A stretch of DNA of 36,842 nucleotides from a virus. The notes under the pieces are model-generated. The model did no database searches and was not told the DNA's origin. It saw nothing but the letters and a program-made list of their open reading frames with translations. The translations under genes and the position numbers were made by a program. Positions 1 to 36,842 of this stretch are shown here, one piece after another; the first letter of the stretch is position 1; each line of letters starts with the position of its first letter. The DNA lies in the IMG/VR virus record IMGVR_UViG_3300025276_000081, positions 1 to 36,842 of that record. One strand, written 5' to 3'.

Positions 1-127
1 CTTTCATAATATTTTGTTTTTGTTTGTTTGTGTTATGTAAAGATAGAAACAATATTCATGTAAAAAAACTTTTATTGATTTATTTTTATTTTTTCTTTAA
101 ATAAATTTTAACTCCTATAAGTACAGC
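1..127. repeat. Terminal direct repeat, left copy (circular closure)
   Basis: Bases 1-127 are identical to 36716-36842. An exact overlap of 127 is the typical mark of a circular molecule assembled with a k-mer of 127, so the true length is 36,715 bp. The first seven bases hold the ATG and first codons of the 57-aa gene at 36549..36722, and bases 30-85 hold its promoter region. A biological terminal repeat is possible but less likely given the exact length. Confidence 0.93.
30..85 (-). promoter_or_regulatory. Class B start-associated promoter module, copy 2 (left end)
   Basis: Same DNA as 36745..36800 through the terminal overlap. Read on the minus strand it has a TATCTTTA box (+ strand TAAAGATA at 38-45), close to the Bacteroidota TAnnTTTG -7 element, then an A-rich leader with ACAAACAAAC before the ATG at 5-7. 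It drives the 57-aa gene that crosses the closure point. A second, slightly diverged copy lies at 36484..36541. Confidence 0.6.
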
Positions 128-4545: not shown

Positions 4546-4595
4546 GTATATTCAAAAGTAGTTTATTAGAATGAGACTACCTAATTTATTTTGAT
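4546..4595 (-). promoter_or_regulatory. Class A start-associated operator/promoter, copy A1
   Basis: Member of a family of eight near-identical ~50-bp modules. Minus-strand -7 box TACTTTTG (+ strand CAAAAGTA 4553-4560), 37 bp before the primase-helicase ATG. Two overlapping inverted repeats sit just upstream: GTAGT 4558-4562 with ACTAC 4576-4580, and ATTAG 4565-4569 with CTAAT 4581-4585. There is no TTG at the -33 position; TTAGG occupies it at a 21-bp spacing. That fits a promoter needing, or blocked by, a dyad-binding regulator. Confidence 0.75.
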
Positions 4596-4614: not shown

Positions 4615-4959
4615 ACTGGCAAACTTAGTTTATTGATTATAAATACTTTACCTTATTTAGGGTAGAATTGGCAAACTTTAAAATATTTTTTGCCCCAGCC
4701 GAAAACCTTTAACAGTAAGGGATACAACGATTTTGGGGTAGAAAAGTAAACTTTTTTCTCTATTCTCCTATACACAAAAATACATTTCATATATATTTTA
4801 CGTTTTAAAAAGGCAAAATATATATGAAATTCTTTTTTTAGCATATTGCAAATACGCCTAAAAAGTTTGCCTTTTTGCCAGTACCCTATAAACACTGGGC
4901 TAATCTGGGGCAAACTTTGTTTTTCAAGTTTACCAGTTAAGCCCTTTTCTGCCCCAAAA
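4615..4959. repeat. Iteron/palindrome element, copy 1 (candidate replication origin)
   Basis: This 345-bp element fills most of the 576-bp gene-free stretch 4516-5091; the rest holds promoter A1 and a terminator. It is about 88% identical to 22999..23355, differing by one 12-bp indel. It contains six copies of a 12-mer related to TGGGGCAAACTT: 4615, 4667, 4742 and 4906 in + orientation, 4863 and 4926 in minus orientation. The outermost pair, ACTGGCAAACTT and AAGTTTACCAGT, form near-perfect inverted ends. The centre is a perfect 16-bp inverted repeat, ATTTCATATATATTTT at 4784-4799 with its complement at 4815-4830, separated by a 15-bp loop. An 86-codon frame across it has only a TTG start and diverges mainly at amino-acid-changing sites, so I read it as non-coding. 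Confidence 0.85.
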
Positions 4960-5091: not shown

Positions 5092-5760
5092 TTAGAACGG
5101 CATGTCTTCAGCAGATACTTCTACCGTAGCTTCTACTGTAACCTCTTTGTCATCTCTACCAAAGTAAGAATCCATGTAAGTCTGTAAAGCATTAGCCGCC
5201 TCATCAGCTACCTTATTCTCTTCTTTAGATATCGTACTACCTAAAGTAAATTCTGGAGTAGTATATTTAACAGCTCCTTTTTTACCTTCTTTAGCCGAAT
5301 TGATCTCAATCCAATTATTATCTAACAAGTGGTTATTATCATTATAAAAATCTGAATAAGCCTTAACTGCCGATCCTTTAAAAGATACATTGATTAAAGA
5401 ACCTTCTGAAGTCATTGCATATATAGATCTATTGTATACTGCTCCGGCATTCTTAGTATTCTCTTTAATGTCTTTATAAAGTCCTTCACCAATTACACCA
5501 CCTTTAAATGCTTTAACTGTTAACGGTTCTTTACCGATAGAGTAAACCTCGTTAGAATAGATACCTGACTCGCTAGCATCATTCCAACCTTTTACTGTAT
5601 GGTAATGTTCTAAAAATAGTATTTTAATAGGTAACTCTACTAATACGTTCTCACCTTTAGCTTTGTCATAATAAGCGAAAGCTTTATCATTTGACTTCCA
5701 GTTTAAATACTGAGTTACTGGTGAACTCGTTTCGTTTGTTGGGCGTTTTAATCGTGCCAT
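5092..5760 (-). CDS. Single-stranded-DNA-binding-like protein
   Basis: 222 aa. The last residues, SAEDMPF, copy the acidic SSB tip (DDDIPF-like) that recruits replication proteins, and an acidic, low-complexity linker (about 185-215) precedes it, as in SSB proteins. The N-terminal part is beta-rich and could be an OB fold, but I do not recognise a named family there. It ends an operon with DnaA domain IV-like and Sipho_Gp157 genes and stops just before a strong terminator. A TATATTTG -7 box at 5825..5832 may give it a promoter of its own, and its ~65-nt leader contains two CTGAGG motifs that could serve self-regulation. Role inferred from the tail motif and context. Confidence 0.65.
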   Translation of the reverse strand: MARLKRPTNETSSPVTQYLNWKSNDKAFAYYDKAKGENVLVELPIKILFLEHYHTVKGWNDASESGIYSNEVYSIGKEPLTVKAFKGGVIGEGLYKDIKENTKNAGAVYNRSIYAMTSEGSLINVSFKGSAVKAYSDFYNDNNHLLDNNWIEINSAKEGKKGAVKYTTPEFTLGSTISKEENKVADEAANALQTYMDSYFGRDDKEVTVEATVEVSAEDMPF

Positions 5761-7282: not shown

Positions 7283-7332
7283 GTATATTCAAAAGTAGTT
7301 TATTAGAATGAGACTACCTAATTTATTTTGAT
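7283..7332 (-). promoter_or_regulatory. Class A start-associated operator/promoter, copy A2
   Basis: Identical over its core to A1 and A3, with -7 box TACTTTTG (7290-7297 on +), both inverted repeats, and the A-rich leader ACAAACAAACAAAAAC leading to AATATTATG at 7260. It lies just downstream of the terminator of the 76-aa unit, so terminator, promoter and leader form one ~110-bp intergenic block. Confidence 0.75.
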
Positions 7333-7346
7333 TTATTTTAAAATAA

Positions 7347-7370
7347 TTTAAAAGGGCTTTTTACAGCCCC
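7347..7370 (-). terminator. Intrinsic terminator of the 76-aa unit
   Basis: Minus strand GGGCT, loop GTAAAA, AGCCC, then TTTT, 15 bp past the stop at 7385. A one-gene unit between A3 and this terminator. Confidence 0.75.
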
Positions 7371-7384
7371 TTGTTTTATAAGTA

Positions 7385-7636: not shown

Positions 7637-7686
7637 GTATATTCAAAAGTAGTTTATTAGAATGAGACTACCTAATTTATTTTGAT
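7637..7686 (-). promoter_or_regulatory. Class A start-associated operator/promoter, copy A3
   Basis: -7 box TACTTTTG (7644-7651 on +) about 29 bp before the ATG at 7615, with both inverted repeats present and unchanged from A1. It follows the terminator of the 103-aa unit directly. Confidence 0.75.
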
Positions 7687-7702: not shown

Positions 7703-7724
7703 TTAAAAGGGGCTTTTAAACCCC
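7703..7724 (-). terminator. Intrinsic terminator of the 103-aa unit
   Basis: Minus strand GGGGTTTAAAAGCCCC followed by TTTT, 8 bp past the stop. The same sequence recurs at 36249..36270, also immediately upstream of a class A module. Confidence 0.8.
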
Positions 7725-7731
7725 TGTTTTT

Positions 7732-8066: not shown

Positions 8067-8116
8067 GTATATGTAAAAGTAGTTTATTAGAATTAGACTA
8101 CCTAATTTATTTTGAT
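8067..8116 (-). promoter_or_regulatory. Class A start-associated operator/promoter, copy A4
   Basis: Both inverted repeats are kept, with one base change in the spacer (AGAATTAGAC for AGAATGAGAC). The -7 box is TACTTTTA (8074-8081 on +). The leader differs from A1-A3: CAATTAACAAAATGAC in place of ACAAACAAAC. Copies A4, A5 and A6 share this leader type and so form a sub-family. Confidence 0.7.
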
Positions 8117-8150: not shown

Positions 8151-8190
8151 GTATATGTAAAAGTAGTTTATTAGAATGAGACCGCCAAAT
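8151..8190 (-). promoter_or_regulatory. Orphan class A module, copy A5
   Basis: A tandem copy 35 bp upstream of A4. The right arms are changed (ACCGCC for ACTACC), so both dyads are weakened, while the TACTTTTA box and leader remain. No gene lies between A5 and A4, so this looks like the promoter of a lost small gene or a second start site for the 103-aa unit. It lies in the ~216-bp gene-free stretch 8044-8259, together with A4 and a terminator. Confidence 0.6.
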
Positions 8191-8198
8191 AAAAATGC

Positions 8199-8826: not shown

Positions 8827-8870
8827 GATATATGTAAAAGTAATCTATTGAAATTAGACCACAAAACTTA
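8827..8870 (-). promoter_or_regulatory. Diverged class A module, copy A6
   Basis: The most diverged copy. The TACTTTTA box is kept (8834-8841 on +), but the dyad arms are altered (GTAAT for GTAGT, ACCAC for ACTAC). It lies between the last methyltransferase stop (8902) and the 37-aa gene. No terminator is visible between, so the methyltransferase transcript may run through. Confidence 0.55.
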
Positions 8871-8880
8871 TTTAAACTTA

Positions 8881-8925
8881 TTTTTATAATTTATAATCAT
8901 TCTAAATAAGCTTACAGTTTTCTAT
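8881..8925. repeat. 45-bp direct repeat, copy 1 (3' end of methyltransferase 1)
   Basis: Matches 11137..11181 with one mismatch. Here it covers the last codons of methyltransferase 1 and the sequence beyond its stop; the other copy covers the last codons of the 112-aa gene. As a result both proteins end in KLI (ENCKLI and ENSKLI). The repeats bracket the three-methyltransferase block, which points to duplication by recombination. Confidence 0.85.
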
Positions 8926-9642
8926 TCTTTCTTTAGCTATGTTAAAATAATTTTCGTCCATTTCAATACCTATAAAGTTTCTGTTTAAATTCTTTGCAGC
9001 AACTCCTGTAGAACCTGAACCCATAGTGAAATCTAATACAGCTTCATTTTCGTTCGTGTAGGTTTTAATTAGATACTCCATTAAAGCTACAGGCTTTTGT
9101 GTTGGGTGTTTCACTTTGTCGGCAGAACTATTGTGTACGCATTTAATTCCCTCTATGACTCTACTTGGATATACTAAATCTGTTTGATTGTCTTTAAAGG
9201 TTTTACTATAATCACCATAGTTATCTGTAGATGTTGAATGCTTTTTATTGCCTGCCTTTATAGTTGTTCTTGATTCCATAATAGGATTGTATGTTGGCGG
9301 TTTTTTATAAAAGACACTTACTATCTCGTTATTCAATAAAGGCATCTTCTTTGCATTTAAGAATCCTGTCTTTAAATTCTTTTTCCAAATCCAATCATAT
9401 TTGTAATTCTTAATATTACTAATTCTTAACGCACTACTAAAAGGTTCACTACCAAACAAAACTATTGCCCCGTTAGGCTTAATAATCCTGTTCAACTGTT
9501 CCCACATAAGCTCAAAATCAATTACACTATCCCACTTGCACGCTGTTGTACCATAAGGCGGGTCCGTTATTATAGCATCAATGCTATTATCTTCAATCGT
9601 TTTCATTACTTCAAGGCAATCGCCTAATCTTAAATCAATCAT
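8902..9642 (-). CDS. DNA methyltransferase 1 (beta-class, N6-adenine or N4-cytosine)
   Basis: 246 aa of the N6_N4_Mtase family, transferring a methyl group from S-adenosylmethionine to an exocyclic amino group of a DNA base. The catalytic motif IV is TDPPY at 26-30; the SAM-binding motif I FTMGSGSTG is at 205-213, after HPTQKP at 179-184. The order IV, target-recognition region, I makes it beta class, and DPPY favours N6-adenine. The middle (about 99-178) differs strongly from the two paralogues, so the target site probably differs too. Its last codons belong to a 45-bp repeat shared with the 112-aa gene. No partner restriction enzyme is present, so the likely role is shielding phage DNA or marking it. 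Confidence 0.93.
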   Translation of the reverse strand: MIDLRLGDCLEVMKTIEDNSIDAIITDPPYGTTACKWDSVIDFELMWEQLNRIIKPNGAIVLFGSEPFSSALRISNIKNYKYDWIWKKNLKTGFLNAKKMPLLNNEIVSVFYKKPPTYNPIMESRTTIKAGNKKHSTSTDNYGDYSKTFKDNQTDLVYPSRVIEGIKCVHNSSADKVKHPTQKPVALMEYLIKTYTNENEAVLDFTMGSGSTGVAAKNLNRNFIGIEMDENYFNIAKERIENCKLI

Positions 9643-9656
9643 TTATTCTGTTTTTT
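9566..9656. repeat. 91-bp direct repeat, copy 1 (5' end of methyltransferase 1)
   Basis: Identical by eye to 11050..11140. It covers the first ~25 codons and the leader of methyltransferases 1 and 3. Identity includes third codon positions and the leader, so the copies arose, or were converted, recently. Methyltransferase 2 does not share it. Confidence 0.85.
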
Positions 9657-10369
9657 GCTATGTTAAAATAATTTTCATCCATCTCTATACCTATAAATTT
9701 TCTGTTTGTATTCTTACAAGCTACGCCAGTCGTTCCACTTCCCATTGTGAAGTCTAAAACTGTTTCATTTTCATTGGTATAGGTCTTGATTAGATATTCC
9801 ATTAATAATAACGGTTTTTGTGTTGGGTGTAGACCTTTATCTCTCTTGAATGTTAAGATAGTTTTAGGATAGTTTGTGTGAGTTGAAATAAACTCTTTTT
9901 TATGAGAAGGTCTACTTGCAAAAGAAACATTACTTGTTACAGTCTTTGTTCTCTTTTTATTAATCTCAACTAATCCTTGTGGATAGTAGTCCATTCTGTT
10001 TTTAGATTGACCTTTGTGAACTGTTGTTCCATTGCTGAAAATTATAATATTTTCATGTTGTTTCATAGGCTTATTTTTAGCATGAACAAAATTAGTAGCA
10101 CTTGCTTTATTCCAAATCCAATCGTACTTATAGTTTTTAATATTACTCATTCGTAAAGCAGAACTAAACGGCTCACTTCCAAATAAGACTATTGCTCCAT
10201 TAGGCTTTATTATTCTATTAAGCTGCCCCCACATAGGCTCAAAAGGTATTACTGAATCCCACTTACAAGCTGTAGTTCCGTATGGAGGGTCTCTTATAAT
10301 AGCGTCTATGCTACCTGTAGGTATAAGTTTCATTTGTTCTATACATTCTCCTTTAATTAAGTTTATCAT
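9635..10369 (-). CDS. DNA methyltransferase 2 (beta-class paralogue)
   Basis: 244 aa, the middle gene of three. DPPY is intact at 27-30 but preceded by R26 instead of T. Motif I reads FTMGSGTTG, and HPTQKP is present. The N-terminal ~98 residues and C-terminal ~65 are closely alike in all three genes; the centre (about 99-175, with MKQHENIIIFSN and a basic stretch INKKRTKTVTSN) is unrelated to the other two and should set a different target. The stop region overlaps the start of methyltransferase 1 by 8 bp. The N-terminus (MINLIKGECIEQMK) is more diverged than that of 1 and 3, so this is the older duplicate. Confidence 0.92.
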   Translation of the reverse strand: MINLIKGECIEQMKLIPTGSIDAIIRDPPYGTTACKWDSVIPFEPMWGQLNRIIKPNGAIVLFGSEPFSSALRMSNIKNYKYDWIWNKASATNFVHAKNKPMKQHENIIIFSNGTTVHKGQSKNRMDYYPQGLVEINKKRTKTVTSNVSFASRPSHKKEFISTHTNYPKTILTFKRDKGLHPTQKPLLLMEYLIKTYTNENETVLDFTMGSGTTGVACKNTNRKFIGIEMDENYFNIAKNRIND

Positions 10370-10382
10370 TTTTTATTTATTT

Positions 10383-11126
10383 TTAAAATAGTTTTTTTGG
10401 TATGTTATTAATTCTATCGGTCGCTATGTTAAAATAATTTTCGTCCATTTCAATACCTATAAAGTTTCTGTTACATTGCTTTGCAGCTACTCCAGTTGAT
10501 CCACTACCCATTGTAAAATCAAGTACCGTTTCACCCTCGTTGGTATATGTTTTAATTAGGTATTCCATTAATTCAACAGGTTTTTGTGTTGGGTGGTTGT
10601 AGTTTGTTTGTTTGTCGCTTTTAAAGACTATGTTCGTTCGTGGATACCTGTCCGTATTACCCCCAAAAGGCAATTCTTTTGTGGCTTTACCATACACTTG
10701 TGTTTTATTTTGTACTGCAAGTCTTCTAACTCCGCTATTCATAGGTTCGTGTCCTTGTGTTTTTTGAGGATTATAAACGCATTGTTTTTTATAAAATACA
10801 GATATCAATTCATTACTTCTTAATGGTTGTTTGTTAGCGTTTAAGTGTCCTGTTGCCTGTGTTTTTTCCCATACCCAATCATACTTGTAGTTCTTAATTT
10901 TACTCATTCTTAAAGCACTACTAAAAGGTTCACTACCAAACAAAACTATTGCACCATTCGGTTTTATAATTCTATTTAATTGTTCCCACATTAACTTAAA
11001 ATCAATCACACTATCCCACTTACATTTTGTTGTACCATAAGGTGGGTCTGTTATTATAGCATCAATGCTATTATCTTCAATCGTTTTCATTACTTCAAGG
11101 CAATCGCCTAATCTTAAATCAATCAT
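10383..11126 (-). CDS. DNA methyltransferase 3 (beta-class paralogue)
   Basis: 247 aa, first of the three in transcription order. It has TDPPY at 26-30, HPTQKP and the motif I segment FTMGSGSTG. The first 25 codons and leader are identical in DNA to those of methyltransferase 1, while the central target-recognition region (about 100-175: ELISVFYKKQ shared with 1, then a different stretch with GVRRLAVQNKTQVYGK) has diverged. It follows the 112-aa gene by 31 bp. All motifs needed for activity seem intact, so each of the three could be active on its own site. Confidence 0.92.
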   Translation of the reverse strand: MIDLRLGDCLEVMKTIEDNSIDAIITDPPYGTTKCKWDSVIDFKLMWEQLNRIIKPNGAIVLFGSEPFSSALRMSKIKNYKYDWVWEKTQATGHLNANKQPLRSNELISVFYKKQCVYNPQKTQGHEPMNSGVRRLAVQNKTQVYGKATKELPFGGNTDRYPRTNIVFKSDKQTNYNHPTQKPVELMEYLIKTYTNEGETVLDFTMGSGSTGVAAKQCNRNFIGIEMDENYFNIATDRINNIPKKLF

Positions 11127-22998: not shown

Positions 22999-23355
22999 AG
23001 TGGTAAACTTTGGGGCAAACTTAGTTTACTGATTATGATTACATTACCTTATTTAGGGCAAAATTGGCAAACTTGAAAATATTTTATGCCCCAGCCGAAA
23101 CCCTTTGATAGTAGGGGTTTGGAGACTTTTGGGGTAGAAAAGCAAACTTTTTCCTCTATTCTGCTATATAGAAAAATACATTTTGTATATATTTTACGTT
23201 TTGAAAAGGCAAAATATATATGAAATTCTTTTTTTAGTATATTGTAAAACCGCCTAAAAAGTTTGCCTTTTTGCCAGTAGCCCGTAAATGCTGGGCTAAT
23301 CTGGGGCAAACTTTGTTTTTCAAGTTTGCCAGTTAGTCCATTTTCTACCCCAAAA
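22999..23355. repeat. Iteron/palindrome element, copy 2
   Basis: 357 bp, homologous to 4615..4959 with about 88% identity over the core and one extra 12-bp unit at the left end, which adds a seventh iteron. Iterons related to TGGGGCAAACTT: 22999, 23011, 23063, 23138 and 23302 in + orientation, 23259 and 23322 in minus orientation. Ends are inverted (AGTGGTAAACTT and AAGTTTGCCAGT). Central hairpin 23180-23195 with 23211-23226 pairs in 14 of 16 positions; both changes would be G-U wobbles in a plus-strand RNA. With its terminator and the AT-rich 22822-22998 stretch it fills the ~630-bp gene-free gap 22807-23433. Confidence 0.85.
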
Positions 23356-35333: not shown

Positions 35334-35381
<48 letters not shown>

Positions 35382-35890: not shown

Positions 35891-35940
35891 GTATATTTAA
35901 AAGTAGTTTATTAGAATAAGACTACCTAATTTATTTTGGT
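35891..35940 (-). promoter_or_regulatory. Class A start-associated operator/promoter, copy A7
   Basis: Both inverted repeats kept. Two changes from A1: GTATATTTAA for GTATATTCAA (so the box reads TACTTTTA) and GAATAAGAC for GAATGAGAC. It precedes the lipoprotein gene. Confidence 0.72.
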
Positions 35941-36183: not shown

Positions 36184-36233
36184 GTATATTCAAAAGTAGT
36201 TTATTAGAATGACACTACCTAATTTATTTTGAT
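36184..36233 (-). promoter_or_regulatory. Class A start-associated operator/promoter, copy A8
   Basis: Core as A1 except GACACTACC for GAGACTACC, which leaves both ACTAC and CTAAT arms intact. -7 box TACTTTTG (36191-36198 on +). Together with the terminator at 36249..36270 it is nearly identical to the block 7637-7724. Confidence 0.75.
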
Positions 36234-36248
36234 TTATTTTAAATTAAT

Positions 36249-36270
36249 TTAAAAGGGGCTTTTAAACCCC
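36249..36270 (-). terminator. Intrinsic terminator of the 59-aa unit
   Basis: Minus strand GGGGTTTAAAAGCCCC then TTTT, 12 bp past the stop at 36283. Same sequence as 7703..7724. Confidence 0.8.
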
Positions 36271-36282
36271 TTATTGTTTTTG

Positions 36283-36483: not shown

Positions 36484-36541
36484 GTGTTATGTAAAGATAG
36501 AAGTAATATTGATATAAAAAAACTTTTATCGATTTATTTTT
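36484..36541 (-). promoter_or_regulatory. Class B start-associated promoter module, copy 1
   Basis: Contains TATCTTTA (+ strand TAAAGATA at 36492-36499), the leader ACACAAACAAACAAAAAC, and an imperfect dyad (ATTGATATAAAA facing TTTTATCGAT). It differs from copy 2 (36745..36800) at only a few bases. The class A dyads are absent, so these two genes may obey a different signal. Confidence 0.6.
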
Positions 36542-36722: not shown

Positions 36723-36842
36723 AATATTTTGTTTTTGTTTGTTTGTGTTATGTAAAGATAGAAACAATATTCATGTAAAAAAACTTTTATTGATTTATTT
36801 TTATTTTTTCTTTAAATAAATTTTAACTCCTATAAGTACAGC
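36716..36842. repeat. Terminal direct repeat, right copy (circular closure)
   Basis: Exact copy of 1-127. One of the two must be dropped to obtain the 36,715-bp circle. Confidence 0.93.
36745..36800 (-). promoter_or_regulatory. Class B start-associated promoter module, copy 2 (right end)
   Basis: The same DNA as 30..85. TATCTTTA box at 36753-36760 on +, about 30 bp before the ATG of the 57-aa gene, matching the box-to-start spacing of class A modules. Confidence 0.6.

Follow-up and report, generated by a model that had tools for sequence, protein, structure and literature searches.

A family of eight candidate promoter modules before non-structural genes of a flavophage

The closest published analogue of the repeat family described here appears to be the extended start-associated sequences (ESAS) of cluster K mycobacteriophages. 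As given in the accessible parts of two reports, Adephagia carries seven copies of a promoter-containing block of 46-47 bp with an imperfect inverted repeat (PMC11373665, PMC3203893), and the consensus of this inverted repeat differs between subclusters (PMC3203893, PMC11373665). In Flavobacterium, sigma-A promoters have a TAHHTTTG -7 box, the last G of which is nearly invariant in F. johnsoniae (PMC6847099). The -33 motif of the latter species is "much less evident", and AT-rich motifs at -18 and -28 are more pronounced (PMC6847099). We found no report of multi-copy promoters in flavophages in the open-access literature, and little there on transcription timing in Bacteroidota phages.

The stretch of DNA analyzed in this study (the window) is the whole viral contig of record IMGVR_UViG_3300025276_000081, with a length of 36,842 bp and a G+C content of 31.5%. 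Its first and last 127 bases are identical, and the contig is therefore probably circular, at about 36.7 kb (36,715 bp). The terminase shares 68% identity with its counterpart in Cellulophaga phage phi10:1 and 58% with the one in Flavobacterium phage 11b, which makes a host among the Flavobacteriia likely. The virus is a flavophage of marine-type bacteria, related to these two phages. All genes used in the analysis are transcribed leftward. Late genes (terminase, portal, protease, tape measure, and amidase) occupy the middle of the genome, and the non-structural part encodes a BT4734-like/PriCT primase, a helicase, a DnaA domain IV protein, Gp157, and methyltransferases. Three consecutive genes at 8902-11126 are apparently tandem duplicates (direct repeats D2 and D4, 69-89%), with a DNA methyltransferase-like match at least for 10383-11126. 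A long ATT trinucleotide run is located at 35338-35380, between the terminase genes and the early block.

The window also contains a 300-bp segment in two copies (4618-4917 and 23014-23313) that are 88% identical, one before the primase and the other in the late region. The segment harbors GGCAAACTT in both orientations, and nine exact copies of this sequence were counted in the window against 0.38 expected. Both copies have an open 86-codon frame with a TTG start, but this frame does not look like a coding sequence, since its 32 differences are spread 7/12/13 over the codon positions and cause 19 residue changes. The segment possibly represents an origin of replication or some other cis site.

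A repeat search revealed eight blocks, referred to as class A, in one orientation and all on the coding (minus) strand. A search for a 20-letter core that tolerated 3 mismatches yielded exactly eight matches, all on the minus strand, compared to a mean of 0.06 in 100 shuffles. The stricter GTAGT..ACTAC core, searched at a tolerance of 2 mismatches, yielded seven, compared to 0.00 expected. An initial sequence-only reading had described eight near-identical blocks of about 50 bp. Their number, places, and orientation were confirmed, whereas near-identity applies to six copies only, 8151 and 8827 being diverged. The copies, together with neighboring hairpins and two candidate promoters of another type (class B, TATCTTTACATAAC), are as follows:

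4547..4590, minus strand: class A module, subtype A1 (copy 4546), before the 786-aa primase gene
7284..7327, minus strand: class A module, subtype A1 (copy 7283), before the gene of a 93-aa protein, first of the DnaA-IV/Gp157 run
7351..7372, minus strand: terminator-like hairpin after the 76-aa gene, directly upstream of the 7284 module
7638..7681, minus strand: class A module, subtype A1 (copy 7637), before the 76-aa winged-helix-like gene
7708..7725, minus strand: terminator-like hairpin, directly upstream of the 7638 module
8068..8111, minus strand: class A module, leader subtype A2 (copy 8067), before the 107-aa gene; both dyads intact
8152..8195, minus strand: class A module, subtype A2 (copy 8151), tandem upstream copy; left dyad arms lost; TTG-N20 at -33
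8829..8872, minus strand: class A module, subtype A2 (copy 8827), most diverged, before a 37-aa ORF; all dyad arms lost; TTG-N19 at -33
35892..35935, minus strand: class A module, subtype A1 (copy 35891), before the 115-aa gene (lipoprotein-like N-terminus, by eye)
36185..36228, minus strand: class A module, subtype A1 (copy 36184), before the 71-aa gene
36253..36272, no strand assigned: hairpin directly upstream of the 36185 module; called on the plus strand only, near-palindromic
36486..36529, minus strand: class B candidate promoter, before the 59-aa gene
36747..36790, minus strand: class B candidate promoter, before the 57-aa gene; equals window 32-75 across the circle joint

The distance from the box of the module to the first ATG was 18, 28, 28, 29, 29, 29, and 37 nt for seven of the eight copies, which bears out the earlier statement that seven modules are start-associated. 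For the 107-aa gene, a second ATG at 30 nt from the box suits the other leaders better, as judged by eye. Copy 8151 has no start codon of its own and represents a tandem second copy 84 bp upstream of 8067. Class A is absent between 8,902 and 35,224, a 26-kb block extending from the methyltransferase genes to the terminase. The hairpins before the 7284 and 7638 modules have T-rich tails. Hairpins directly upstream of three modules would make the genes that follow separate transcription units.

As had been proposed, every copy carries a -7-type box, TACTTTTG in four and TACTTTTA in four. Tested against the Bacteroidota TAnnTTTG, the box ends in TTTG in half of the copies (4/8) and in TTTA in the other four. 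It is followed by an A-rich leader of one of two subtypes, AATATACAAACAAAC in A1 (4546, 7283, 7637, 35891, and 36184) and CATATAyCAATTAAC in A2 (8067, 8151, and 8827). Relative to the first T of the box, pairwise identity averaged 0.81-0.90 from -30 to +30 and 0.59-0.66 from -50 to -30. It dropped to 0.29-0.40 beyond -60 and was 0.50 or less beyond +30. Conservation reaches beyond a bare promoter. The 18 nt directly before the box, with the core GGTCTnATTnnAATAnAn, are conserved with few departures, at about -30 to -13 from the expected start. Above this element, six copies carry ATTAGGTA; 8151 and 8827 carry TTG there instead, a replacement that, with two copies, is suggestive only. The sequence of the spacer between the -33 position and the box is normally free, and the fixed stretch at this place is what remains unusual about class A.

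The sequence-only reading had placed weight on the lack of TTG at -33. Six copies indeed lack it, but it is present in 8151 and 8827, with spacings (N20 and N19) derived from motif positions. We compared this to 151 boxes found by pattern before ORFs of relatives, a set in which near-duplicate loci were kept and L063, L087, and the window were excluded. TTG was found in 46 of these candidate promoters, with a spacing of 17-23 that peaked at 19, and was absent from 105 (70%). Because most candidates in relatives lack TTG and the -33 motif is weak in F. johnsoniae (PMC6847099), its absence is ordinary and does not carry the weight placed on it. The missing TTG as a mark of activator dependence is weakened by the same 105 candidates.

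Class A appears to be private to one phage, as no relative with the module was found in the records scanned. A weight-matrix scan of loci L008 to L062, from which the window's own copies (L001 to L007) were excluded, gave no class A match above 14 bits, and a 24-letter class A pattern had no matches in genome_contigs. In viral_contigs, an exact 19-mer matched once (L063), in what by eye is coding sequence, and was taken as chance; the relaxed core also matched once (L097), likewise coding by eye. A BLAST search of the records from which 32 of the 89 outside loci derive gave a best E of 0.0019, with short stretches, the best ones in the leader.

Start-associated families were also counted in 54 records of 9 kb or more, the window among them; shorter loci were dropped, and most of the other records are fragments. 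Starts of window genes were linked by upstream blocks to up to five other starts. Among the 53 other records, mostly of the flavophage type, each start was linked to one other at most. In a comparison of the window with seven named phage records at a slightly looser setting, with only 50 kb covered for four of them, the largest families in the seven had 2, 2, 2, 0, 0, 2, and 9 members. The family of nine belongs to MW202828.1, the primase of which is 38% identical to that of this phage. It consists of a perfect 14-bp palindrome, TGTCGTTAACGACA, with 14 copies in 50 kb (10851-60850), at positions 32896-44305 of L102. Seven of the 14 copies lie 17-24 nt before the first downstream ATG, and some seem, by eye, to lie inside coding sequence. 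The TGTCGTTAACGACA family is start-associated and operator-like. Another member of the wide group therefore has a start-associated repeat family too, one that is unrelated in sequence and contains a true dyad. In another phage, two neighboring genes (L070 and L071) share the upstream block TATTTTGTTTATTAGTTGTTAATTAAAAAAAA, a small promoter pair.

The record has no sigma-70 region 2 match, and no Rfam match was obtained. The 76-aa winged-helix-like protein, which owes this label to the sequence-only reading, had been put forward as a candidate regulator. Twenty-four orthologues were found, 15 of which were aligned and are 58-86% identical. Their genes have different upstream sequences, in several cases a TTTTGTTTATAACT-type sequence and then TATATTTG or TATATTAG. 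Class A was absent upstream of them, and no match at an E of 0.001 or less occurred in nine of their records searched whole. As orthologues occur in phages that lack class A, this protein is an unlikely regulator. Its segment QLKG..GSL is nearly invariant across the aligned orthologues, which makes it unlikely that the DNA target of the protein has changed in this one phage. The 93-aa protein has no relative in viral_contigs and a low-confidence predicted fold (mean pLDDT of 54.8), and is a candidate regulator by position only. The suggestion that the module governs all early genes was too broad. A promoter-like family does extend across the non-structural gene blocks, but the 222-aa gene (5092-5760) has a different candidate, TATATTTG, and two genes have class B, which resembles class A in the A-rich leader and lacks its upstream element.

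We put at about even the chance that class A is a phage-private, multi-copy promoter of the sigma-A type that has a conserved element ahead of the box and is probably recognized by a phage regulator. Given eight copies, each in the position of a gene switch, a set of non-structural genes would probably be switched together. Host sigma-A RNA polymerase would read TACTTTTG/A as the -7 box and start transcription 4-5 nt downstream of it, giving rise to a short A-rich leader. The 18-nt element, together with ATTAGGTA in the six copies that have it, would replace the usual -33/-28 region and serve as a candidate contact site for a phage-encoded or phage-modified factor. The genes would then form a single regulon under this factor. 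Activation of weak promoters is its most likely mode of action, and shut-off by repression a less likely one. The match to sigma-A is weak because TTTA replaces the nearly invariant TTTG in half of the copies and six are without TTG. The fixed spacer and the boxes ending in A would fit weak sigma-A promoters with an added contact element. If regulated, class A would supply ready-made promoters that respond to the phage, along with a bait for a new phage factor directed at RNA polymerase. Another reading, which we consider unlikely, is that the modules form a private promoter class where -33 recognition by the divergent Bacteroidota sigma-A has given way to a new phage factor. The six ATTAGGTA copies, which lack TTG, would depend on the factor, and the two TTG copies would be versions of the same promoter that are independent of it. 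If true, ATTAGGTA and TTG copies would represent a natural comparison within one genome.

A further reading takes the modules as the operator family of a phage repressor, acting via the two overlapping dyads of the sequence-only reading, ATTAG/CTAAT and GTAGT/ACTAC. Both dyads are intact in six of the eight copies and not in every one, as had been described. Their number is at chance level: the 44-nt consensus contains two perfect 5-bp inverted repeats, compared to 1.54 expected from dinucleotide-preserving shuffles of the same 44 nt (P = 0.42). No 6-bp perfect inverted pair occurs in this consensus, and its best 10-bp imperfect pair was not above the shuffles (P = 0.92). The result most favorable to the dyads is a borderline one. 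When only arms with at least two G/C were counted, one pair (GTAGT/ACTAC) was obtained against 0.06 expected (P = 0.054). In 8151 both left arms are lost and in 8827 all four arms, and neither copy shows a compensating change. The dyads were rejected as operators on account of their chance-level number and this uncompensated loss, and the record has neither an integrase nor an HTH_3 repressor match. We consider the operator reading improbable.

The main rival is simple cassette duplication. An ordinary constitutive sigma-A promoter and its leader would have been spread with small genes by recombination, and the modules would reflect shared ancestry with no dedicated regulator. This is quite possible, if short of probable. 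Recent duplication could by itself account for the near-identity of the five A1 copies, the likeness of some copies runs into hairpin and leader (D1: 135 nt, 87%, 7602 versus 36149), and lack of TTG is common among relatives. What speaks against plain cassettes is the pattern of loss in the diverged copies. Of the 19 nt before the box, one keeps 17 and the other 13 that agree with the A1 consensus, but the sequence above is not always kept, 8151 having just 4 of 15 positions from -45 to -30 before the box. That the repeats are replication or packaging sites (iterons) which happen to precede genes, and not promoters, would account for multiple copies in the same orientation near the primase and DnaA-IV genes. 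This is very improbable, since seven of eight copies stand 18-37 nt before an ATG. The window contains no exact DnaA box and shows no excess of one-mismatch boxes (43 compared to 55 expected), and the separate GGCAAACTT cluster resembles such a site more.

The promoter reading with a conserved upstream element can be placed beside three described systems. Middle promoters of T4 consist of a MotA box and a -10 element. Class A would resemble them in that the core box is kept and the upstream box is replaced by an element for a phage factor, as proposed here; the spacing differs, and no MotA-like protein is known from this phage. With Flavobacterium sigma-A promoters, as far as the accessible parts of the reports describe them, class A shares a leader of tens of nucleotides and, in part, the -7 box (TTTG in four of the eight copies) and the weak or absent -33 motif (TTG in two of the eight) (PMC6847099, PMC9723704). 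The host promoters have AT-rich -18 and -28 motifs in those descriptions, whereas class A has one fixed sequence of about 25 bp (PMC6847099, PMC9723704). Unlike in Flavobacterium promoters, the boxes end in A in half of the copies (PMC6847099).

According to the accessible parts of the cluster K reports, ESAS and class A are alike as multi-copy blocks of about 50 bp in one orientation, intergenic and upstream of non-structural genes, with a candidate SigA (sigma-A) promoter inside. In the same parts, ESAS has an imperfect inverted repeat of 15-17 bp, which was not found in class A (10-bp imperfect pair, P = 0.92; no 6-bp pair), and usually occurs with a 13-bp SAS located 3-9 bp before the start codon, whereas class A leaders are A-rich and without the GGGATAGGAGCCC element. 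The Bacteroidota-type -7 box is a further difference from ESAS as described there. The likeness to cluster K SAS drawn earlier fits, within these descriptions, the layout of ESAS (about 50 bp, promoter plus inverted repeat) and fits the 13-bp SAS less well. Since class A shares the ESAS layout but differs in the inverted repeat and the SAS, we file it under the general kind "multi-copy phage promoter module", to which it appears to be a phage-private addition.
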